A DNA stretch of 64,000 bases, from NCBI RefSeq assembly GCF_020804225.1, contig NZ_WJBI01000022.1, positions 89-64,088 on the forward strand, in the 5' to 3' direction. Each line of letters begins with the position of its first letter. Position 1 is the stretch's first letter. The notes beneath the pieces are model-generated. The model searched no databases, was not told where the DNA came from, and saw only the letters and a list, made by a program, of their open reading frames with translations. This DNA comes from Methanosarcina sp. DH2. GTDB taxonomy: Archaea > Halobacteriota > Methanosarcinia > Methanosarcinales > Methanosarcinaceae. The position numbers and the translations under genes were made by a program. Of this stretch, positions 28,329 to 59,177 are shown piece by piece.

Positions 28329-28703
28329 ACAGATAAAGTAAAACCAGTTTTATTTAAAAGACTTATGGAATAAAACTCGAAAAACTAACTTTCCGCACTT
28401 CCTGGAAGTCCAGTATGGTTTTAATTAGCCACCTGCTTGGGATAGATTGGAATGAATTCAAATAAAAAATGCATTGTTAATAAATAAAAAACGAAGTGGT
28501 TAAAAAAATAAAAATAGTGGAATGATTTAAAAAATCTAAAAACAAGGAAAAAAGAACTAAAAACTAAAAAAACATAAGAAAAAGGAAAGGAAAAAAAAGA
28601 ACAAGAAAAAATTAAAATAAAAGAAAGACTTTGAGAAATACTCAAAAAAGCATCAACTTTTGAAAATAAATAAAGCGAACTTTTGAAAATAAATAAAGCG
28701 GAT

Positions 28704-28859
28704 AGAAGGAGAAAAAAGAAAGAAGAAGGAAAAGAAGAAAGAGGGAAAAGAAAGAAGAAGGAAAAGAAGGAGGAGGAAAAAGAAAGAAGGAGGAAAAGAA
28801 GAAAGAGGAAAAAGAAAGAAGGAGGAAAAAGAAAGAAGAAGGAAAAGAAGAAGGAAAAG
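28704..28859 (+). repeat. 156-nt uninterrupted homopurine tract
   Basis: Every base from 28704 to 28859 on the plus strand is A or G, arranged as AAGAAAGAAGGAGGAAAA-type units with partial mirror symmetry. The ORF it contains is an artefact of purine-only codons (Lys/Glu/Arg/Gly). Confidence 0.95.
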
Positions 28860-29070
28860 CAACTATATAGGTTCTTAAATTAGTTCTTAACTAGTTAAAA
28901 AACAGTTTAGCTTATAACTCGAAAGAGATTCAATAGTTTTGATTAGTAGTTTTTGAGTACTTTTTTACATATTTTCTAGTCACTGCATAGGGTTTTCCAG
29001 TAAATGGAGAACCTGAATGACCAGATTATCAAGGATATTTTGATAAAAAGAATTGTTTTATTTGAGAGGG

Positions 29071-29396
29071 ACCCCTTCATTTCTACTGGAGAGGGATAAA
29101 GCGGTCGAAGTATAGATTTTGTTGACTAATTAATAAATTTAATTAAAAATTTGTAAATTTATTTTAATTCTTGTATAAAAGCATTTTATTTTCGTTTAGC
29201 TCGTAAAAACCTCTAAATTTTTATACCTTAATAATAAACTATATATACAATTAGAATTATAACTAAACAACATTATTTTGTTGTTATATCAAAAATAAAA
29301 TGTGATTTTATTTTGTTATTCAAATTCCTGAAACCTTTCAGTAGAAACCATGGGGTCCGGGGGTTATATAAACGTTCCAGTGGAAACAAAGGGGGG
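29071..29396. promoter_or_regulatory. Candidate replication origin: inverted ORB elements around an AT-rich segment
   Basis: Three origin recognition boxes are visible. ORB-1 is inverted (29071-29092; reverse complement CTCCAGTAGAAATGAAGGGG). ORB-2 is plus-strand (29336-29356; TTTCAGTAGAAACCATGGGG, more divergent). ORB-3 is plus-strand (29374-29396; TTCCAGTGGAAACAAAGGGG). ORB-3 fits the archaeal Orc1/Cdc6 site, the mini-ORB core TTCCAGTGGAAAC plus the G-string. The 243 bases between ORB-1 and ORB-2 are almost all A/T (for example AATTAATAAATTTAATTAAA) and could serve as the unwinding element. Inverted ORBs flanking an AT-rich core, near the orc1/cdc6 gene, is the standard archaeal origin layout. 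The boxes are seen; origin activity is inferred. Confidence 0.8.
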
Positions 29397-29689: not shown

Positions 29690-29790
29690 CCAATCCTTAA
29701 ATCCAATCCTGAAAATCCAATCCTGAAAATCCAATCCTTAAATCCAATCCTTAAATCCAATCCTTAAATCCAATCCTGAAAATCCTAATC
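29690..29790. repeat. AATCCAATCCT-type tandem repeat
   Basis: About seven degenerate units of AATCCAATCCTTA or AATCCAATCCTGAA (13-15 bases) lie head to tail on the plus strand, about 300 bases beyond ORB-3. Confidence 0.75.
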
Positions 29791-30222: not shown

Positions 30223-31752
30223 TCAGGTTTCGAAAGGTTCTGTATCTTCTCTGTGAATGGTCTTTCCATGGAGAGCTACATGATTTACGCGGTCGAATTC
30301 TTTGAGGATTTCTTTTGCAGGGCCTTCCTTATCCAGAATGCTGATGGTATAGATTGTTATGCATGAGAGGAAGAATCCAGGGACGATTTCATACAGGTCA
30401 AAAATTCCACCCGAGAGCTGCTTCCAGATGATAACGACGAGGCCGCCAACAACCATTCCACCGAGTGCTCCGTTTCTGGTTGTTTTTCTCCAAAAAAGAG
30501 AGAAGAGAACAACAGGCCCAAAGGCAGCTCCAAATCCTGCCCATGCATATGAGACCAGACCCATAACCGAGTTATTCGGGTCCCTTGCTATTAGATAGGC
30601 AATTGCTGAAATTACAATAACTGCAAACCTGCCCATCCAGACAAGCTCCTTTTCACTTGCGCTTTTTTTCATGGCTATCCTGTAAATGTCTTCAGTAAAG
30701 GCAGATGCGGCAACAAGGAGCTGGGAATCAGCAGTACTCATGATGGCTGCAAGGATAGCTGCAAGGAGAATTCCTGCAATAATGGGCGTGAATAAGGTAT
30801 TTACCATTACCATAAAGATGGTCTCGCTTCCAGCTGCTCCAAGAAACTCAGGATACAGGTAAGCTCTTCCAACAATCCCGATCGCTACGGCAAAGAAAAG
30901 GGAAATAATGACCCAGACCATCGCAATAATTCTTGCCTGCTTAATTTTGTCAGGGGATTCTATAGCCATAAAACGGACCAGGATGTGCGGCATACCAAAG
31001 TATCCCAGGCCCCAGGCAAGGTTTGAGATAAGAGGAATTGCACCACCAGCAAGAGCAGTCCAGGGATTAAGCATTTGTGGGTCTATACTCTCAATCAGGC
31101 TCACGGTCGAGTCGTAACCTCCAATTCCTTTCATAGCTGCAAGAGGCACAAAAACAATGGCACAGAGCATTAGCATACCCTGGAAAAAATCAGTCCAGCA
31201 AACAGCCATGAAACCTCCGAGGAACGTATAGCTGATAATCACCAGTACACCGATAAGAAGAGCTTGCTGATAAGGGATTTCAAAAACGGTGTTAAAAAGC
31301 TTTCCACTTGCAACAAGTCCTGAAGAAGTGTAAAGCAGGAAGAAAACCAGAATCAGTATAGATGAGATAATCCTCAAAGCATGGCTTTTATCTCTGAACC
31401 GGTTTTCAAAGTACACGGGAATAGTAATGGAATCCCCTGCAATCTCGGTATACTCGCGTAATTTTTTTGCAACAAATTTCCAGTTCAGGTAAGTTCCAGC
31501 AGCCAATCCCAGTGCTAACCAGATAGATTCCATTCCTGACAGGTAAGCATACCCCGGTAATCCCAGTAGCAACCAGCCACTCATATCCGATGCCTGAGAA
31601 CTCAGCGCGGTAACCCAGCTGTTTAGCTTTCTTCCTCCTAAAATATAATCCGCAAGATTCTCCGTTTTCCGATAATAGAGAACTCCGATGGAGATCATGA
31701 AAAGCAGATATATTGCGAAAACAAGTACAATACTGAAATTATCTGATACCAT
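30223..31752 (-). CDS. putP: Sodium/solute symporter (SSS family, proline-permease-like)
   Basis: The 509-residue protein has about 13 membrane helices and the SSS signature regions. It starts FAIYLLFMISIGVLYYRKTENLADYILGGR and continues with SSQASDMSGWLLLGLPGYAY (the sodium-site helix with the Ser/Asp cluster), NLAWGLGYFGMPHILVRFMA, and SWAGFGAAFGPVVLFSLFWR (here YAWAGFGAAFGP). These match bacterial PutP closely, including length. It takes up a compatible solute or amino acid with sodium; proline is the best guess. It sits alone between two ORB-containing non-coding regions, reading away from cdc6. No neighbouring metabolic gene explains its substrate. Weak ribosome signal at ATG 31752. Confidence 0.9.
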   Translation of the reverse strand: MVSDNFSIVLVFAIYLLFMISIGVLYYRKTENLADYILGGRKLNSWVTALSSQASDMSGWLLLGLPGYAYLSGMESIWLALGLAAGTYLNWKFVAKKLREYTEIAGDSITIPVYFENRFRDKSHALRIISSILILVFFLLYTSSGLVASGKLFNTVFEIPYQQALLIGVLVIISYTFLGGFMAVCWTDFFQGMLMLCAIVFVPLAAMKGIGGYDSTVSLIESIDPQMLNPWTALAGGAIPLISNLAWGLGYFGMPHILVRFMAIESPDKIKQARIIAMVWVIISLFFAVAIGIVGRAYLYPEFLGAAGSETIFMVMVNTLFTPIIAGILLAAILAAIMSTADSQLLVAASAFTEDIYRIAMKKSASEKELVWMGRFAVIVISAIAYLIARDPNNSVMGLVSYAWAGFGAAFGPVVLFSLFWRKTTRNGALGGMVVGGLVVIIWKQLSGGIFDLYEIVPGFFLSCITIYTISILDKEGPAKEILKEFDRVNHVALHGKTIHREDTEPFET

Positions 31753-32399: not shown

Positions 32400-32610
32400 T
32401 CGAATACCCCGCTAGCTTGCTGCGGGGATGGAAAACTTCCCCGGTAACCGTTAATGATAATATGATTTATCAATCCCATTTTTTGGTTGTTAACTTCTGC
32501 TCAAACTAAATTGTTTAGGGATATTATCTCCTTTAACGGAATTTGGAGCGGTGGCGCGAACATACCCCGTTGCTTGCAGCGGGGTGCGCCAGCACAACTT
32601 TGATTTTTTC
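32400..32610 (-). mobile_element. Fossil IS200/IS605 (TnpB-type) right end with two hairpins
   Basis: On the minus strand a 34-codon open frame ends at 32490 (ATAPNSVKGDNIPKQFSLSRS is its tail). Then comes a GC-rich segment ending in a hairpin, CCCCGCAGCAAGCTAGCGGGG, followed by TATTCGA (about 32404-32432). This hairpin-plus-TTCGA arrangement looks like the right end of IS200/IS605-group elements, where the TnpB guide-RNA scaffold lies. A second hairpin of almost the same sequence, CCCCGCTGCAAGCAACGGGG then TATGTTCG, lies at about 32566-32591. It suggests a nested or duplicated end. No tnpA and no full tnpB remain. Family assignment is an inference from the hairpin form and the position of the ORF tail. 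Confidence 0.5.
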
Positions 32611-33044: not shown

Positions 33045-33228
33045 TTGAATGGAAATAAAGGGGTTCAAAAATTCTTGATCTTCTTCCACGCGAAAAAGAG
33101 GATTTAAATCTTACCTTCAGGGGTTCTGGAACTATTTACTCTTCATTTTTTTATAAATGAGTCTGATGATATTGATTCCTTCAATAGATATTTAAGGTAA
33201 ACATCAGTTCCAGTAGAAATAAAGGGGT
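33045..33228 (+). promoter_or_regulatory. Two ORB elements upstream of orc1/cdc6
   Basis: ORB-4 (33045-33064) reads TTGAATGGAAATAAAGGGGT, missing the first part of the core. ORB-5 (33207-33228) reads TTCCAGTAGAAATAAAGGGG. Both face the plus strand, 143 bases apart and about 1 kb upstream of the cdc6 start, next to a very AT-rich stretch on their left (32700-33040). They may form a second half of the origin or autoregulate cdc6. Confidence 0.7.
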
Positions 33229-34195: not shown

Positions 34196-35440
34196 ATGAT
34201 AAAAGCTCAATCATTAGACGGCTTATTCGAAAAATTACTTGACGGAAAGTCAATTTTCAAAAACAAAGAGGTTCTTCGTCCTTCTTATACACCGGACCTG
34301 TTATTACACAGGAATGAACAGATAAACAGTCTTGCAACTATCCTGGTTTCCGCACTCCGTGGAGAGACCCCTTCGAATGTCCTGATTTACGGAAAAACAG
34401 GGACAGGAAAGACTGCAGTGACCAGGTATGTAGGAAAAGAACTCGAAAGAGTAAGTGAAGACAAGTCAATTTTCTGTTCTGTTGTTTATATTAATTGCGA
34501 GGTAATCGATACTCAGTACAGGCTTCTTGCAAATCTTGCCAGGCATTTCGAAGAAGAGGTGCCCATGACCGGGTGGCCTACAGATCAGGTTTTCATGAAA
34601 TTTAAGGAAGCGATCGATGCAAGAGACCAGGTTATTATTATCATTCTGGACGAAATTGACAAGCTGATCAAGAAAGGCGATGATGTACTCTACAACCTTT
34701 CAAGGATCAATACAGATCTCAAGAAAGCCAAGGTCAGCATGATCGGGGTTTCCAATGACCTCAAATTCACGGAGTTTCTGGATCCCAGAGTAAAAAGTTC
34801 CCTGGGTGAAGAGGAGTTAATCTTTCCACCTTATGATGCCGAGCAGATAAGTGATATCCTGAAGCAAAGGGCAAAAATGGCTTACAATGATGGGGTGCTT
34901 GGCGAAATGGTAATCCCGCTCTGTGCAGCTTTTGCAGCCCAGGAACACGGCGATGCCCGCAGGGCACTTGATCTTCTGCGCGTTTCTGGAGAAATTGCAG
35001 AGAGAGAAAACCTGCCTCAGGTTCTTGAGGAACACGTAAGGCGCGCGCAAGAAAAAATCGAAATAGACCGCGTAGTGGAAGTCGTGCGTACTCTCCCGAC
35101 CCAATCCAAACTTGTGCTTTACAGTATCATCCTGCTCAGGAACCGCGGAAGAGAGGGCAAGAATATCACAACCGGCGAGATGTATAATGTTTACCGCCAG
35201 CTCTGCCATCATATTGATGTGGACATCCTTACTCAGCGCAGGGTCACTGACCTGATGTCAGAACTTGACATGCTGGGTATAGTCAATGCAGTAGTAGTAA
35301 GTAAGGGACGGTACGGAAGGACAAAAGAAATCTCTTTGAGCGTTCCTGTGGAAAACACTCGCAAAGTCCTCCTCGAAGACTACAGGCTCAAACCTCTTGT
35401 AGATTTTAAAGCCTCCGTTTTCAACAAGATGTTCTCTTAA
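34196..35440 (+). CDS. cdc6: Origin recognition/loading protein Orc1/Cdc6
   Basis: The 414-residue AAA+ ATPase has Walker A GKTGTGKT (66-73), Walker B IIIILDEID (about residues 143-151), sensor motifs around GVSNDLKF, and the arginine-rich EHGDARRALDLLR region. The C-terminal 100 residues form the winged-helix DNA-binding domain. It binds ORB sites and loads the MCM helicase. Length and motifs fit the main euryarchaeal Cdc6-1 type. ATG at 34196 follows GAAGAGGGTC, a good ribosome site; TATTATA at about 34168 may belong to the promoter. It stands next to two ORB clusters, so it probably acts on them in cis. It ends in a hairpin terminator. Confidence 0.97.
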   Translation: MIKAQSLDGLFEKLLDGKSIFKNKEVLRPSYTPDLLLHRNEQINSLATILVSALRGETPSNVLIYGKTGTGKTAVTRYVGKELERVSEDKSIFCSVVYINCEVIDTQYRLLANLARHFEEEVPMTGWPTDQVFMKFKEAIDARDQVIIIILDEIDKLIKKGDDVLYNLSRINTDLKKAKVSMIGVSNDLKFTEFLDPRVKSSLGEEELIFPPYDAEQISDILKQRAKMAYNDGVLGEMVIPLCAAFAAQEHGDARRALDLLRVSGEIAERENLPQVLEEHVRRAQEKIEIDRVVEVVRTLPTQSKLVLYSIILLRNRGREGKNITTGEMYNVYRQLCHHIDVDILTQRRVTDLMSELDMLGIVNAVVVSKGRYGRTKEISLSVPVENTRKVLLEDYRLKPLVDFKASVFNKMFS

Positions 35441-42879: not shown

Positions 42880-43986
<1,107 letters not shown>

Positions 43987-44832
43987 TTAAATCACGGCTT
44001 TCATAATGTCTGTCCTGCTCAGTATTCCTACTATTTCTTCACCTTCACTGACAGGCAGGGCCGTTATACCTTCTTCAATCAATTGTTTTGCAGCACTGCT
44101 AATTTTCTCGTTTATATCGATGGATACTATTGGAGAAACCATGATGTCCTCTGCTGTTAAGGGTACTTCTTTTACATACCTGTAAGTTTTCTGGCCTCCG
44201 GGCGAGGACCTCCGGGTCATCTTGATGCTTTTTGTTGAAAGTTTGCCTTCGTTATCTGTTAAGAGGTTTAAGGCAAGGCTTCTGCTTGAAATGATTCCCA
44301 CAGGTTTTCCTGTATCATCTTTAACGACTACTCTTTCAATTTCATTTTTGTTCATTTCGTCTATGACATGGTTGATTGTGTGGTGTCTGTGAACAGAAAT
44401 GATATCTTCGGTCATCAGTCTGGGAATCTTTGTATCTATTTCATCCGCATGTTCGGAAACATAGCGCACGATATCTGTCCTGGTGACAATGCCTACAATA
44501 TCATTTTTTACCACCGGAATGTTATGTACTCCGTTCTCAAGCATCAAGGCGACTGCTTGGGAAATAGAGGCCTCGGGATAAATGGTGATTACGGACTCTG
44601 TCATCAGCAACTTGATTGGGATCTGGTCAATAGGCCGTCTCCTCCAGAGGGGTTCGGCTTGAGCCAGGCGGTTGGTGATGTCTGATTTCGTGACGATTCC
44701 CACCATTTTGCCCTCGTTAAGGACAAGCAATGTACTGATTCTATGTCTTAACATCAGATTTCTTGCATGTGACACGGGTTCATCCACGTTTATAATATAT
44801 ACAGGTGAACTCATGATGTCCGCCACATTCAT
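43987..44832 (-). CDS. CBS-domain protein 2 (four CBS motifs)
   Basis: The 281-residue protein has four CBS motifs in two modules: [48 protein letters not shown] and [18 protein letters not shown]. Each is followed by the usual [12 protein letters not shown] turn. There is no additional domain. The ATG at 44832 follows GGAGGTATTCC, a strong ribosome site. The order of the motifs is the same as in CBS proteins 3 and 4, so they probably derive from duplication. The ligand and partner are unknown. Confidence 0.92.
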
Positions 44833-45179
44833 GGAATACCTCCTACATTTTTACAATATATAAGTATTAACAATTATAGTTTGTGAATCAGATATGGACT
44901 TTGTAATTTTCAGCTATTTTGAATCTTTATTTTAAGACAGGCTCCGCTCTGAAACATCAGAGAAATCAGAGCACAGAATTATTCTGGTCTGTCCAGCCAA
45001 GAAGTTTGTCCCCTATCTAACTCTTTAAGCTACCCGGATTCCTTTTCATGAGTTCTCCGGATTTAATTCTGGCTTATTCAGTTCTGGTTCGGTTTAGCAG
45101 AAGTTTGTTTAGCAGAAGTTTGTTTAGCAGAAGTTTAATCTTGCTTAGAATGTTTATTCCAGTCTTATTCAGACTCCTG
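44833..45179. other. Spacer between CBS genes 2 and 3
   Basis: This 347-base AT-rich gap contains three exact copies of the 12-base TTTAGCAGAAGT (45091-45136), read as SLFSRSLFSRSL in an unimportant frame. A TATA-like element on the minus strand lies near 44850-44862 (ACAATATATAAGT). Confidence 0.55.
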
Positions 45180-46451
<1,272 letters not shown>

Positions 46452-47246
46452 TTACTCAGACCACCCATTGACCATGGACTCCAGGAGGTCTTGCCTATCA
46501 GCGATTCCGGATATTTTCCCCTGGTCATTTACTATAGTAACTCTTCCGATATCATGATAAATAATCATTTCAATCGCACGCTTGACGGAATCGTTCTCTG
46601 AAAGCGTGTATGCAGGAGTTGACATAATCCTCTCAACTTTGGGACTTTCATTTGGCCTTGTCGCCCTCTCGTCTTCTATAGACATCCTCAAAATACCTGA
46701 TTTAATTATGTCCCTTCTTGTTATCATTCCGATGGGATCGCCTTTCTTTGAAACTACTGGAATGCCGGTATAATCTGTCTCTATCATGTAATTCCAGACC
46801 CTGGAGATCCTTTCATCAGGAGAACAGGTTTTGACTTTTTTCGTCATAATCGCTTCTATGGTTTTCGAAACGTTTCTGGGGAGCTCCACGTTTTTGAGAA
46901 TATCAACATCACTCAGGACTCCTACGACCGTACGGTCTGTTGTTGATTTGACAACCGGAACCCTGTTCTGTTTCGATTGTACCATTAGTTTTGCAGCTTT
47001 GCCAACATCCATATCCGGAGTGACCGTCGGGGACTGCCTTGCATATCCGCCTACCGTAACGTTCGAGCGCGTGGATGTCACATTCATGATATCCTGGTCA
47101 TTTAACATTCCCACAAGCCTGTTTCCTTCATCAACAACGACAAGACCCCGAAAGAAGTAATCGCGCATCAGTTGACGAGCGTGAGTCACAAACTCACTCT
47201 CTTTGATACTTACAGGCTCTTCTGACATAATCTCGTTGACAATCAT
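46452..47246 (-). CDS. CBS-domain protein 4 (four CBS motifs)
   Basis: The 264-residue protein starts [16 protein letters not shown] at ATG 47246, with an AGGAAGG ribosome site upstream. Four CBS motifs follow: [16 protein letters not shown], the second around [33 protein letters not shown] and [16 protein letters not shown]. It is the most regular of the set. CBS gene 5 ends 80 bases upstream of its start, so these two may share a transcript. Confidence 0.92.
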
Positions 47247-47325
47247 TGTTTACCTTCCTATATTCCTTTTAAAACAGAAAGCTTAAACGTTGGAAAGTTA
47301 GAAAGTCGAAACCTCAATGTTATAT

Positions 47326-48069
47326 TTATTCGTAGTTCTCCCCTTCTTCCTGCCGGCAGTTTGCACATAAATACCTGCCATCTACGAATTTAAGGTCCAC
47401 TGAAAAAACATCACAGGATTCACATATTCCTGTGCTGAATTCCTCTGAAACCTCCTCAATTGAGGGAATGGAAAGGAGAGCCTCCCGATTCATATCAATA
47501 AGGTCTTTGAGAATGGTGTTGAGACCGGGTGATATCATTAAGATATCAGTGTTCGAAATCATTCCAACTATCGTATTGTCTTCTAGAACTGGAAGCCTTT
47601 TTATATTGGCTTTCAACATGATCCTGGAAGCTTTAATTACACTGGTTGTAGGTTCAACAGTTATCAACGGAGTAGAGAGGATTTTGCTCGCTTCGATCTC
47701 ACTTGGTCTTTTATCCTCTGTAATAATACTTTTTACAAGGTCCCTTTCAGTTATGATCCCCATGGCCTTTCCATCTTCCGTGATGATGACGCTTCCCGCA
47801 TCACGGCTGACCATTTCCTTTGCAATGGCAGGAATATCCGAGTCGATATCCATTACTATAACTGCTTTATTCATAGCTTCAGAAACCGAGACCTCTCTCT
47901 CAAGCTCTCTACTGTGAATGCCAGAACCTTCCGCCCTATCAACATTTATTTCTCTTGTAGAGTCGCCTACTGTGTAAACACCAGTGTCTCTATCTCTATC
48001 AATGTTCCTCTCCCTATCAGCATCTCTCCCCCTATCAATATTTTTTTCCCTTTTAGGGTCATCTATCAT
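47326..48069 (-). CDS. CBS-domain protein 5 with C-terminal zinc ribbon
   Basis: I use ATG 48069 (MIDDPKREKN), preceded by AAAGGGGGA, which gives 247 residues. A GTG 16 codons upstream has no ribosome site. The first about 75 residues are charged and repetitive (NIDRGRDADRERNIDRDRD). Two CBS motifs follow (SEAMNKAVIVMDIDSDI and SKILSTPLITVEPTTSV). The C-terminus is a zinc-ribbon-like module CESCDVFSVDLKFVDGRYLCANC with two CxxC pairs. A metal ribbon on a CBS pair suggests contact with nucleic acid or a protein. It is the first gene of the CBS array and lies next to the ORB-containing gap. Confidence 0.88.
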   Translation of the reverse strand: MIDDPKREKNIDRGRDADRERNIDRDRDTGVYTVGDSTREINVDRAEGSGIHSRELEREVSVSEAMNKAVIVMDIDSDIPAIAKEMVSRDAGSVIITEDGKAMGIITERDLVKSIITEDKRPSEIEASKILSTPLITVEPTTSVIKASRIMLKANIKRLPVLEDNTIVGMISNTDILMISPGLNTILKDLIDMNREALLSIPSIEEVSEEFSTGICESCDVFSVDLKFVDGRYLCANCRQEEGENYE

Positions 48070-48468
48070 TGAATGCCGTCCCCCTTTACTTTCAGCGCCT
48101 TTAAACCTACGATTCACAAAATAAGTTTTTTCAAGCTTCCAGCTTCCTTTAAAAACATTCCAGCTTACTTTAATTTTTCTTTTTAATCAATATTAAAAAT
48201 TTAGCTTTTGAAAACTGGAGTTCTGGTGGAGCTTGCCATTTTAGACTCATTATCTTGTCCGCTCCCCTAATGTGTCTTCCCAACACTTTTCGGACGTTTT
48301 TATAACACTTATATATACGAGTCAATGGTACATAATGATAACGGCATTTCTTTTTTTTTGCAAATATCTCAAATTTATACAAAGTAGGCAGAGCAACCTT
48401 TTTTTGAATCAAAGACCTTTATTTTCTTCACGAGAGCTTTATGTAAGTCCGGCAGGAATTTTTTCAGA

Positions 48469-48668
48469 ACCCCCTCATTTCCACTGGAGATTTTTGCTCA
48501 TAATGAATAATATCGAATTTTCTGGAAAAAATATCAGGGAGAAATAGCAGAAGCAAAATACACTTCTGAAAAAAATCTCAAATCGAATAAAACATTCTTA
48601 ATTATATTTTTAATGCTATTGATTTTTCTCACAGGAAATTTTTTAGACCCCTTTATTTCCACTGGAAC
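48469..48668 (-). promoter_or_regulatory. Two inverted ORB elements, second cluster
   Basis: ORB-6 (48469-48490; reverse complement CTCCAGTGGAAATGAGGGGG) and ORB-7 (48647-48668; reverse complement TTCCAGTGGAAATAAAGGGG). ORB-7 matches ORB-5 with one change and has the perfect core. Both face the minus strand, 156 bases apart, and the interval is AT-rich. Their orientation is opposite to ORB-3, ORB-4 and ORB-5, and they lie 15-19 kb from them. Confidence 0.75.
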
Positions 48669-48743: not shown

Positions 48744-48958
48744 CTAGTGTCGCGACAATTTAATTATTAAACATAATATTTTGATAGTTTGTTATCGGTA
48801 TAAAGGGATTCATAGCTTATTAAGTGATCAATAATTAAATTTCCATGATACTAGTGTTGGGGAAATTTATTTATGAGCCATCATAATTACGAAAAAAAAC
48901 TACTTATGGGGGGTAATCTAAATATTAATGCCCCATAATTAAGTTGTCATGACACTAG
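48744..48958. mobile_element. Two tandem CTAG-bounded palindromic elements (MITE-like)
   Basis: CTAG occurs at 48744, 48851 and 48955, dividing the region into units of 107 and 104 bases. In each unit the ends are inverted copies of each other. Unit 1: CTAGTGTCGCGACAATTTAA at the left against CTAGTATCATGGAAATTTAA (reverse complement of the right end). Unit 2: CTAGTGTTGGGGAAATTTAT against CTAGTGTCATGACAACTTAA. The matches run about 25-35 bases into each unit. They are too short to encode anything. Confidence 0.7.
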
Positions 48959-49166
48959 ATAAAAATTAAACAGCACATAAAGTAATGATCAGATGAAGTT
49001 AAAAAAATCTGGACAAATTTCGTAAATCCAGAAAATACAAAAGAAAAAACCAAACTGAAGCCAACAATTATCCAATAAAGACGTGAAAGGCAGATGAAAA
49101 TAAAAACGGGAATAGATCAAAAAAATGAAATAGTAAAGAATAAAAATAGGTAAAAATAGGGAATAA

Positions 49167-50621
49167 TTATAGAATAATCACTCTACTCCTATTCCCAACA
49201 CTCAATTCCATCTCTTCGTTCAGCCCATACTTGGCATAAGCGTCAATGATCTGGATTTCGGAGTCGATATCCAGATCCTCTATCACATAGGCCTGTTCAC
49301 CCCAGAGGGTTAGCCGGATATTGCCTGTTTCGTCCTTAAGTTGCAGGTTTGCGACCACATTTTCAGTTCCGTCTTCCTTCTCAAATTCTCTGAGTTCCCC
49401 GATTTCGGTAACCTTACCCTGAACAGAATAACTTTCTCCAGGAATAATGTCAGCTATGTCAGTAAACTTTTCCCTGTACTCAACCTTTTTTTCACTTTTT
49501 TGAATTATCCCTCTGGCTCCCAGGCTGAGTTCAACTTGCTGGCTGAAAGTGTTTTCCCGGGAATAAGCGTTAAGAACCTCAACGGTTTCGTCAAAATCAA
49601 TCTCTTCAAGAAAATCGGTTTTTTCATCCCAGAGTGTAAGTCTTATTTTGCCTGTAGAATCACCCAGAAGAATGTTTCCAACCCTGCCGGCAGATCCGTC
49701 TTTTTTCTCAAAAGCCCGGACTTCTGAGATATCAAGCACCCTTCCTGAGATGTTAACATTATTCATTTCGGCCTTTATTTCTGCAATTGGGGTAAATTCT
49801 TCTTTGTATTCGACTTTCTTTTCACTTTTCCTGATTATGCTCCGGTTTCCTATCTGCAGTTCCACTTTCTGGGTAAAGGCATTCTCCCGGGCGTAAGCAT
49901 TGATCAGCTCAACTATATCCCCATACTCAAGCTGGCTTAGAAAATCGGTTTTTTCATCCCAGAGCGTTACTCTGAGTGTACCTGTTTCATCCCCAAGCAG
50001 CAGGTTCCCCACCCTTCCGCTGTTACCATCCTTGCGCTGGAAGGTCCTGATTTCAGAAACCTCAAGTACCTTTCCTGTAAGGTTAAGGTCTCCCATCCCA
50101 TCTTTTATGTCCTTTATTTTCTGGCTGCTCGAAGCCACATCAACTTCCTCTTCACTTTCGGTCAGGACTCCATTGTTACCGATATTAACTTCCACTCCGG
50201 AATAGCCCTGCTTTGCAAATCCGCTGACCTGAACTGTTTGTCCTACCTTTACTTTTCCGATTTTAATCAGGTCTGCCATGTTATCCCACAGGGTTAACTT
50301 TACTTTTCCGGTCTCGTCTCCAACGATAAGGTTTCCTACTCTGCCTATAGTGCCGTCGTTCCGGGTAAACTCTTTAATATCGAAAATTGAAACAATCCTT
50401 GCGATGAAATTAACAGGTCCGCTTTCCGGGGTAATATTTTCTACTTTTATGCTGTCTCTGCCCGCATCCGAGAATCCCAGTTCATTGGCAACTAGCATGG
50501 CAGCCATTGCCTCATCACACAGTCCTCCCATGTTCTCGACCTTTTCCTGTGTGCGCTGGAGGAAATCTTCTTTACTGATGACATGGCTGAGCTTCTTGTA
50601 AATAGTATCAATATCGGTCAT
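49167..50621 (-). CDS. Replication protein A (RPA1-type, four OB folds)
   Basis: The 484-residue single-stranded DNA-binding protein has four consecutive OB-fold domains (about residues 70-165, 175-265, 285-375 and 395-480). They are recognisable by the repeated pattern ISGRVLDISEVRAFEKKDGS, AGRVGNILLGDSTGKIRLTLWDEKTDF and NAYSRENTFSQQVELSLG. A short N-terminal domain of about 60 residues precedes them. No zinc finger is present, unlike the other RPA types of these archaea. The length and four-OB layout match Methanosarcina RPA1. It protects single strands during replication and repair. ATG 50621 follows AAGGGAGT. It is 15 kb from cdc6 and 7 kb from dnaG, and borders the ORB-6/7 gap. Confidence 0.95.
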   Translation of the reverse strand: MTDIDTIYKKLSHVISKEDFLQRTQEKVENMGGLCDEAMAAMLVANELGFSDAGRDSIKVENITPESGPVNFIARIVSIFDIKEFTRNDGTIGRVGNLIVGDETGKVKLTLWDNMADLIKIGKVKVGQTVQVSGFAKQGYSGVEVNIGNNGVLTESEEEVDVASSSQKIKDIKDGMGDLNLTGKVLEVSEIRTFQRKDGNSGRVGNLLLGDETGTLRVTLWDEKTDFLSQLEYGDIVELINAYARENAFTQKVELQIGNRSIIRKSEKKVEYKEEFTPIAEIKAEMNNVNISGRVLDISEVRAFEKKDGSAGRVGNILLGDSTGKIRLTLWDEKTDFLEEIDFDETVEVLNAYSRENTFSQQVELSLGARGIIQKSEKKVEYREKFTDIADIIPGESYSVQGKVTEIGELREFEKEDGTENVVANLQLKDETGNIRLTLWGEQAYVIEDLDIDSEIQIIDAYAKYGLNEEMELSVGNRSRVIIL

Positions 50622-57632: not shown

Positions 57633-59177
57633 ATGCAAAATACTGATACCACAAAATACATTATTCACTCTAAAATCAATGCTGATGGGGTAATTGAGCG
57701 TCCTGATATCGTAGGCGCAATTTTTGGTCAGACCGAGGGGCTGCTTGGAGCTGATCTTGATCTGCGTGATCTGCAGAAGACCGGAAGGATCGGAAGGATC
57801 GAGGTAATGGTTACTGCCAAAGGGGGAAAGACTAAAGGAAATATCTTTGTCCCTTCGAGCCTCGATAAGGTAGAGACATCGATTCTTGCAGCGTCTCTGG
57901 AAACCATCGATAGGGTAGGTCCCTGCAGTGCCAAGATTGAGGTTTTCCAGGTAGAAGATGTAAGGGCTGTAAAACGTAAAAAAATTATTGAAAGGGCAAA
58001 ACTCATCTTCACGAAAATGTTCGATGAGACTGTGCCAGAATCTCAGGAACTTGCCGATGAAGTCCGGCAATCAGTAAGGGTTGACGAATTGACTTATTAT
58101 GGCAAGTCAAGGATACCCTGCGGACCGAATGTGCTTAACTCGGATGCTATCATTATTGTTGAAGGCAGGGCCGACATACTGAATCTGCTTCGCTACGGTA
58201 TAAAAAACACCATATGTGTGGGCGGAACTAATATTCCACCTGAGGTCGCTGAACTTACTAAAAAGAAGACCGTAACTGCTTTTACGGATGGAGATCGAGG
58301 TGGAGAACTCATTATACGTGAACTCCTGCAGGTGGCAGACATAGACTATGTTGCCCGTGCTCCGGATGGCAAGGGTGTGGAAGATCTTGTCCAGAAGGAA
58401 ATCATCAGAGCCCTCCGTCGTAAGGTTCCGGTGGAACAAATTATTGAGAAATACGGGATCCAGGAAAAAGAAAGCGAGGACGGTGCCTGCAGGCTGGAAC
58501 GTATTTCTAAAAGAAAGATGAGAGCACCGGAAGTTGTTCCCAGGACTGCTGAAAAGAAACTGCACAAACGTGTGAAGGTTCACAGGGTATCTCCAAAGAC
58601 TGACACTTATGAAGAGGAGTTTCCTGAAGAAATAGAAGAGACGGGCCCCGAAAAAGTTACAGAAAAAGCTCCCGAAAGACCCGCTGAAAAAACTCCCGCA
58701 ACGACAGAAAAAATTGAGGCAAGACAGGCTGTTTCAAAGCCTGCAGTTATGACAAGGACAGTTCCAGCAGCCAGAGTTCCCAGAGGAAAGCCCTCAGCTG
58801 AAAAGGTTTCAGCTGTGAAGGTTCCTGGTGGAGAGGCAGTAAGGGTTTCCCCTGCTCCTGCCAGACAGGCTCCGGCTCCAATTTCTCCGGAGGCAGTGAG
58901 GTTCAGACCGCATGTAGATGCCCTTAAAGGCACGTTGACGGCGAGAATTCTGGATTCTGAAGACAGAGTAATAGAAGAAATCGCAGTCAGAGACCTTGCA
59001 AGCCGGTTAAAAACCTATAGAGACAACGTGAAAAGTGTTGTTTTCGATGGTGTAATTACTCAAAGACTTGTTGATATTGCTTCGAGCAATGCAATCAAGA
59101 ACCTTATAGGAGTAAAGATCGGAAACCTCGCTAAAGTCCCTGCAGATATGGAAGTTTTGACCTCCAGCATGCTCTGA
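57633..59177 (+). CDS. dnaG: Archaeal DnaG-type primase
   Basis: The 514-residue protein has a conserved N-terminal region ([31 protein letters not shown]). The central TOPRIM domain has Glu177 in IIIVEGRAD and the two Asp of TDGDRGGE (219, 221). A disordered Lys/Glu/Pro-rich linker (about 300-440) follows, then a conserved C-terminal segment ([13 protein letters not shown] to the end). Archaeal DnaG primes RNA in vitro and is also bound to the exosome, where the C-terminal part recognises the Csl4/Rrp complex. ATG 57633 follows CTGGGAGAATTCAC. Cdc6, RPA and DnaG lie within 25 kb. The linker has an APARQAPAP-type low complexity but no precise DNA repeat. Confidence 0.96.

Follow-up and report, generated by a model that had tools for sequence, protein, structure and literature searches.

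A probable chromosomal replication origin core, with inverted ORBs around an A+T-rich region, in a Methanosarcina species

Introduction

In the oriC1 of Sulfolobus, inverted ORBs (ORB3-DUE-ORB2) surround an A+T-rich unwinding region near orc1-1 (PMC12141716). Inside this region lies the ucm motif, which is bound by UBP and required for origin activity; UBP has more than 300 sites and is a recent acquisition of the Desulfurococcales and Sulfolobales (PMC12141716). The oriC1 of Haloarcula hispanica (Cdc6A) likewise has inverted ORBs, which end in G-strings and enclose an extra G-rich sequence (PMC3936714). The same organism carries oriC2D, an ORB-rich negative regulator with 11 ORBs directly after cdc6, for which titration of Cdc6 has been proposed (PMC3936714). 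Among methanogens, a review of 2014 listed Methanothermobacter as the only one with an experimentally shown origin (PMC3984812). As summarized there, a single oriC was predicted for Methanosarcina mazei by Z-curve and for M. acetivorans by GC skew. The ORB of Methanomicrobia is given in Ori-Finder 2 as TCCA[GC]T[GT]GAAA[CT][AG]A[AT]GGGGT (PMC4164010).

Here we analysed a 64-kb stretch of DNA from a Methanosarcina species (the window), in which an earlier sequence-only reading had noticed inverted ORB-like boxes around A/T-rich DNA and proposed a replication origin.

Results

Boxes and A/T core of module A

The features of this locus, referred to as module A, are as follows.

29072-29089, minus strand: left ORB, CCAGTAGAAATGAAGGGG, inverted relative to the other boxes; 26.7 bits with the ORB model
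29100-29337, no strand: A+T-rich predicted unwinding region, 81% A+T; its least stable 200 bp are 29126-29325
29227-29334, plus strand: conserved block of the A/T core; of its roughly 107 columns, about 40 do not vary among 15 species
29240-29247, plus strand: TATATATA within the conserved block
29266-29279, plus strand: 14-mer AACAACATTATTTT within the conserved block
29290-29317, plus strand: 12-bp palindrome CAAAAATAAAA-N5-TTTTATTTTGTT within the conserved block
29338-29355, plus strand: degenerate middle ORB, TCAGTAGAAACCATGGGG, 39 bp ahead of the right ORB
29352-29371, plus strand: G-string GGGGTCCGGGGG, then TATA-like TTATATAA, conserved, between the degenerate and right ORBs
29377-29394, plus strand: right ORB, CCAGTGGAAACAAAGGGG; 27.6 bits with the ORB model

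The boxes agree with the published Methanomicrobia consensus including its G-string, which bears out the earlier assignment to the archaeal ORB family. All three boxes, one on the minus and two on the plus strand, were found where they had been reported, but the middle one is degenerate: its ORB-model score is 7 bits, whereas each outer box reaches about 27. This degenerate box is kept in relatives and its layout is conserved across the order; the flank of the left ORB at 29072, GAGAGGGACCCC, is conserved within the genus. With up to three mismatches allowed, the window contains nine box matches where 1.3 are expected, and none of 100 shuffles reached nine, indicating that the boxes are not due to chance. 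The genome searched is a draft of 4,596,082 bases in 37 contigs, with the window on contig C16. It contains six exact matches, five of them within the window, and nine matches with at most one mismatch as compared to none for a reversed control pattern. Boxes additional to those of the earlier reading are found at 33210 (plus), 48470 and 48648 (minus) and 54032 (minus). Module A is flanked at 28680-28860 and 29690-29790 by purine tracts of low complexity (GAAGGAAAAG-type) as well as short tandem repeats of the AATCCTGAAAATCC type.

The G+C content is 18.9% over 29100-29337 and 16.4% over 29112-29330, and the A/T core is the G+C minimum of the window at lengths of 100-238 bp. By nearest-neighbour energy, the least stable stretches of 100, 150 and 200 bp in the 64 kb start at 29214, 29127 and 29126, respectively. 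The description of some 240 bases as 'A/T-only' or 'near-pure A/T' was thus overstated, since the core is 81-84% A+T and 18.9% of 29100-29337 is G+C. The arrangement of oppositely oriented ORBs flanking A+T-rich DNA of low stability is conserved in relatives.

Within the predicted unwinding region, the 14-mer AACAACATTATTTT and the palindrome form a conserved short motif that is confined to the Methanosarcina clade. In most genomes that have the 14-mer, it occurs once, at the putative origin core. The sequence of the A/T core was rejected as an element of the whole order, as outside the Methanosarcina clade its model, R3, did not clearly find it in place. In a check for a conserved hairpin in the A/T core, 91% of cells pair and three are compensatory. 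Support against shuffles was mixed, and for this reason we treat the sequence as a DNA palindrome and set a conserved hairpin aside. A search of modules A and B (the latter described below) for structured RNA with Rfam gave only two sub-threshold matches, both outside the modules and taken as chance.

Module B and the initiator gene

A further set of features lies to the right of module A.

30223-31752, minus strand: putP, sodium/proline symporter, between modules A and B
33046-33063, plus strand: weak ORB-like box, TGAATGGAAATAAAGGGG, 164 bp ahead of box B, found in some members of the genus
33210-33227, plus strand: cdc6-proximal ORB of module B (box B), CCAGTAGAAATAAAGGGG; 32.1 bits, among the best ORBs of the genome
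33228-33330, plus strand: conserved tail of box B, its first part, ACCATAAC.ATTAATA...CTTCCATTG, recognisable across the order
34196-35440, plus strand: orc1/cdc6, initiator of the Orc1-1 type, 414 aa

The gene at 34196-35440 encodes a DNA replication protein of the ORC1 type (NF001625, TIGR02928), made up of AAA+, lid and winged-helix domains. Among proteins of solved structure, its best relatives are Orc1-1 of S. solfataricus (2qby_A) and Orc1 of A. pernix (2v1u_A), both of which were solved with bound origin DNA. The gene start at 34196 confirms the distance of 4.8 kb from the right ORB that had been given earlier. The symporter gene, as had been supposed, separates this part of the putative origin from the cdc6-proximal box, both here and in some relatives. 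The tail of box B has a cross-family form, GGGGTCTTYACCATAA..ATTAATA....CTTCCATTG, that is recognisable across families. Three cdc6-type genes are present in the genome, namely orc1/cdc6 and two paralogues, and among the ORB-model matches listed, none is on the contigs of the other two. Replication genes cluster near the locus between 34196 and 59177: orc1/cdc6, RPA1 (49167-50621) and archaeal DnaG (57633-59177).

Conservation within Methanosarcina and the position of putP

We compared the locus with those of relatives, the closest one recovered being from Methanosarcina sp. 2.H.T.1A.6 (G011), with 91% nucleotide identity in cdc6. Module A was kept in 14 of 14 Methanosarcina relatives compared, the left box of G003 being outside the alignment, and modules A and B with their flanks are conserved in 15 Methanosarcina genomes. 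The search for the box set thereby excludes its absence from this place in all related genomes. The gene order traB, CBS peptidase, mfnA, A, (putP), B, cdc6 and nucleotide-kinase-like gene is kept in the 14 relatives with an assembled region. Throughout the genus, module A consists of the left minus-strand ORB, a variable A/T stretch, the conserved A/T block, the degenerate ORB, GGGGTCCGGGGG-TTATATAA and the right ORB. Of 14 genomes measured, 13 have their left and right ORBs 254-356 bp apart, and in G030 the distance is 492 bp.

The position of putP varies. It lies between A and B in the window genome, G001, G007, G009, G010 (broken), G011, L245 and L246, as well as in three relatives outside GTDB's genus (L250, L254 and L262). 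It is missing there from the other main clade (G003-G006, G013, G019, G029 and G030) and from G008, and the gap between A and B in relatives that lack it is still 0.4-1.2 kb. The cdc6 tree, with an unresolved backbone, implies at least two changes of putP state, and its absence from G008 looks like a secondary loss. We suggest from these comparisons that putP came to sit inside the origin, parting the core from the last initiator box and the initiator gene. Two GC hairpins, CCCCGCTAGCTTGCTGCGGGG and CCCCGTTGCTTGCAGCGGGG, lie at 32405-32600 in the A/T-rich DNA that separates putP from box B; they resemble REP or IS200/IS605-type ends and might be marks of the origin split.

The module across the order

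R2, a sequence-only model of 171 positions from the right part of module A, was used for more distant genomes. Of 112 Methanosarcinaceae genomes, 100 gave a match at E ≤ 0.01, with 13 of the 14 genera represented, and a genome almost always had a single strong match. Further families of the order gave matches as well. On named loci, the match ends 164-502 bp upstream of cdc6 in Methanolobus, Methanohalophilus, Methanococcoides, Methanosalsum, ANME-2, ANME-3 and Methanoperedens, and 1.4-4.6 kb from it in the Methanosarcina clade. The order in these genera outside Methanosarcina is a minus-strand ORB, the A/T core, a degenerate plus-strand ORB, a plus-strand ORB, about 130 bp, the plus-strand ORB B and cdc6. 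This compact shared order and the cross-family tail of box B suggest that A and B derive from a single compact origin in the ancestor and have since been pulled apart. The locus had been called 'oriC, or half of it'. Its identification as oriC is supported by the ORB match, the inverted pair, the least stable DNA and the conservation. The reservation about a half is not, since A and B form one compact origin upstream of cdc6 in other genera and module A would correspond to its complete conserved core. In Methanimicrococcus-like genomes (L295:13405-13570), the corresponding core is several kb from cdc6 or on another contig.

Satellite ORBs

Additional boxes occur in the window well beyond cdc6.

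48470-48487, minus strand: satellite ORB C1, 178 bp from C2
48648-48665, minus strand: satellite ORB C2
54032-54049, minus strand: ORB match D, within rtcA, where it encodes the motif PVEIKGG

The C pair has the 3' end of RPA1 on one side and a CBS-domain gene on the other. In 15 species its two boxes are 177-179 bp apart, and a conserved element of the GAAAAA(A/T)TTCCTG type follows each of them. In complete genomes, a distant cluster, E, lies 0.3-1.8 Mb from the origin locus. Wherever both flanks were seen, its neighbours are a radical-SAM gene and, on the other side, a DhnA-type aldolase gene (names read from the sequences). The five species aligned all have it next to these genes, and its first ORB is the main conserved block. 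C and E are hence initiator-type boxes of conserved position outside the origin locus. Box D, too, keeps its place within the genus, but it was not accepted as a proven ORB, because the protein motif PVEIKGG of rtcA can explain the match, which is possibly coincidental or protein-constrained. The density of boxes is low, with two at C, one at D and two or three at E, and falls short of the 11 in 722 bp of oriC2D. By analogy with Haloarcula hispanica oriC2D and with datA, the satellites may be sites of Cdc6 titration or regulation.

Several other observations concern these regions. In the window genome, cluster E (L009:1480-2550) shows one ORB in the stretch seen, with a transposase-like gene directly after it at the end of contig C26. 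Another ORB-like box, ACAGTAGAAATAAAGGGG (L012:1501-1518), is intergenic in the window genome and is found 43-50 kb from the origin locus, on its far side, in several complete relatives (G007, G009, G010 and G029). In Methanolobus, an ORB adjoins a DNA polymerase II small-subunit-like gene (name read from the sequence) downstream of cdc6. Between C2 and the 3' end of RPA1, 48751-48966 is a terminal-inverted-repeat-like element, ATACTAGTGTCGCGACAATTTAATTAT ... ATAATTAAGTTGTCATGACACTAGAT, possibly a MITE, which would explain why this gap is longer than in some relatives. Five tandem CBS-domain genes occupy 42880-48117 on the minus strand in the interval between cdc6 and RPA1, and the number of CBS5-like matches varies among relatives.

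Composition skew

Skew was sampled in two complete relatives, over 60 × 20 kb in the first and about 0.84 Mb in the second, and the signal was weak and did not convincingly single out the locus. In the G010 sample, fourfold-site GC skew ranked an origin at 0 first with a z of only 1.6-1.8, and AT skew favoured places other than the origin locus. The sampled composition skew of G029 gave no support for the locus.

Discussion

We propose that 29072-29394 is very probably the core of a chromosomal replication origin of the oriC1 type in a Methanosarcina species. The sequence establishes the identity and polarity of the ORBs, the low stability of the DNA between them, the conserved spacing and order, the position of putP and the presence of a cognate initiator gene. 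Apart from skew, the sequence-level tests all favour oriC.

It is unlikely that module B (33.0-33.35 kb), next to cdc6, is instead the working origin and that A serves as an auxiliary region for Orc1 binding or represents a former origin. B adjoins cdc6 and has one of the strongest ORBs in the genome and a strongly conserved 100-bp tail, and several complete genome records begin their numbering 21 bp ahead of box B, so that depositors apparently regarded this site as the origin. However, B is a single strong ORB with no inverted partner, and only A has the A/T-rich layout with inverted ORBs. In addition, A and B are not alternatives to each other, since they make up one compact unit in other genera. 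The location of box B in the upstream region of cdc6 could also be taken to mean that the boxes have no role in initiation and act as operators, at which Orc1/Cdc6 or a repressor of similar sites would control transcription of cdc6 and its neighbours. The C pair, upstream of a CBS gene and beside RPA1, and the TATA-like elements that adjoin boxes would fit this explanation. Yet no plus-strand gene starts for 4.8 kb to the right of A in the window genome, and A has nevertheless retained its inverted boxes and A/T core. Both the least stable DNA and the polarity of the ORBs also fit known origins. We therefore regard a purely regulatory function as very improbable.

The three cdc6-type genes and the weak skew, along with the multiple origins of haloarchaea (PMC3936714), raise the question of whether replication also starts elsewhere on the chromosome, for instance near the cdc6 paralogues, the module A locus being a minor or dormant origin among several. 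This arrangement appears improbable because, but for one distant site, exact ORB matches are confined to the locus, and the contigs of the other cdc6 genes were free of ORB-model matches among those listed. Published skew and Z-curve analyses, as summarized in PMC3984812, also suggest a single origin in M. acetivorans and M. mazei. Further origins besides module A are possible given the two paralogues.

For module A as the origin core, our model of Orc1 binding, melting, MCM loading, bidirectional forks and initiation draws on work in Sulfolobus, Haloarcula and Pyrococcus. The Orc1/Cdc6 encoded at 34196 would bind the inverted ORBs in a polar way through its winged helix and AAA+ domain, with the left ORB facing the right pair, 39 bp apart, across the least stable DNA of the region. 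The A/T core would then melt or receive MCM, and forks would depart from it in both directions. Box B and its conserved tail would represent the outlying third box of the ancestral origin and could possibly also autoregulate cdc6. With putP between the modules, the distance from the core would have grown to 3.8 kb for B and 4.8 kb for cdc6.

A more elaborate, dispersed system of initiation and control can be envisaged tentatively, although we consider it doubtful. It would comprise a core split by a gene from its third box, both being kept, an A/T element specific to the clade (AACAACATTATTTT and the palindrome) that binds an origin-specific protein other than Orc1, and a small set of ORBs, fixed in synteny, that titrate or reload Cdc6 in the way of datA or oriC2D. 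If so, the ORBs beside RPA1, in rtcA and in the distant cluster would link initiation to fork passage.

These results provide a base-level map of a probable origin for Methanosarcina, a genetically tractable genus, with a core of about 300 bp, an outlying box and an A/T element. The insertion of putP offers a natural experiment on the importance of box B and of closeness to cdc6, and the few fixed satellite ORBs would be a direct route to initiator titration in a methanogen.

The predictions for M. mazei and M. acetivorans concern the same genus and likewise a single origin; the accounts of them that were consulted state neither an exact position nor a split by putP. Our locus resembles Haloarcula hispanica oriC1 in its inverted ORBs with end G-strings and a G-rich sequence inside the pair, but here the inner G-rich sequence is one-sided and forms no inverted repeat, and a gene parts the origin from cdc6. 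ORBs C, D and E are similar to oriC2D in lying outside the origin and downstream of cdc6, whereas here two ORBs are 14 kb from cdc6 and the others are farther. As in Sulfolobus oriC1, inverted ORBs flank an A+T-rich region with a conserved motif inside; the core is about 290 bp here and 130 bp there, and the initiator gene here is 4.8 kb away. The A/T-core element is reminiscent of ucm, but it is a different A/T sequence whose 14-mer is nearly single-copy at the origin, as compared to the more than 300 sites of UBP, and both the sequence and the protein that recognises it would be different.
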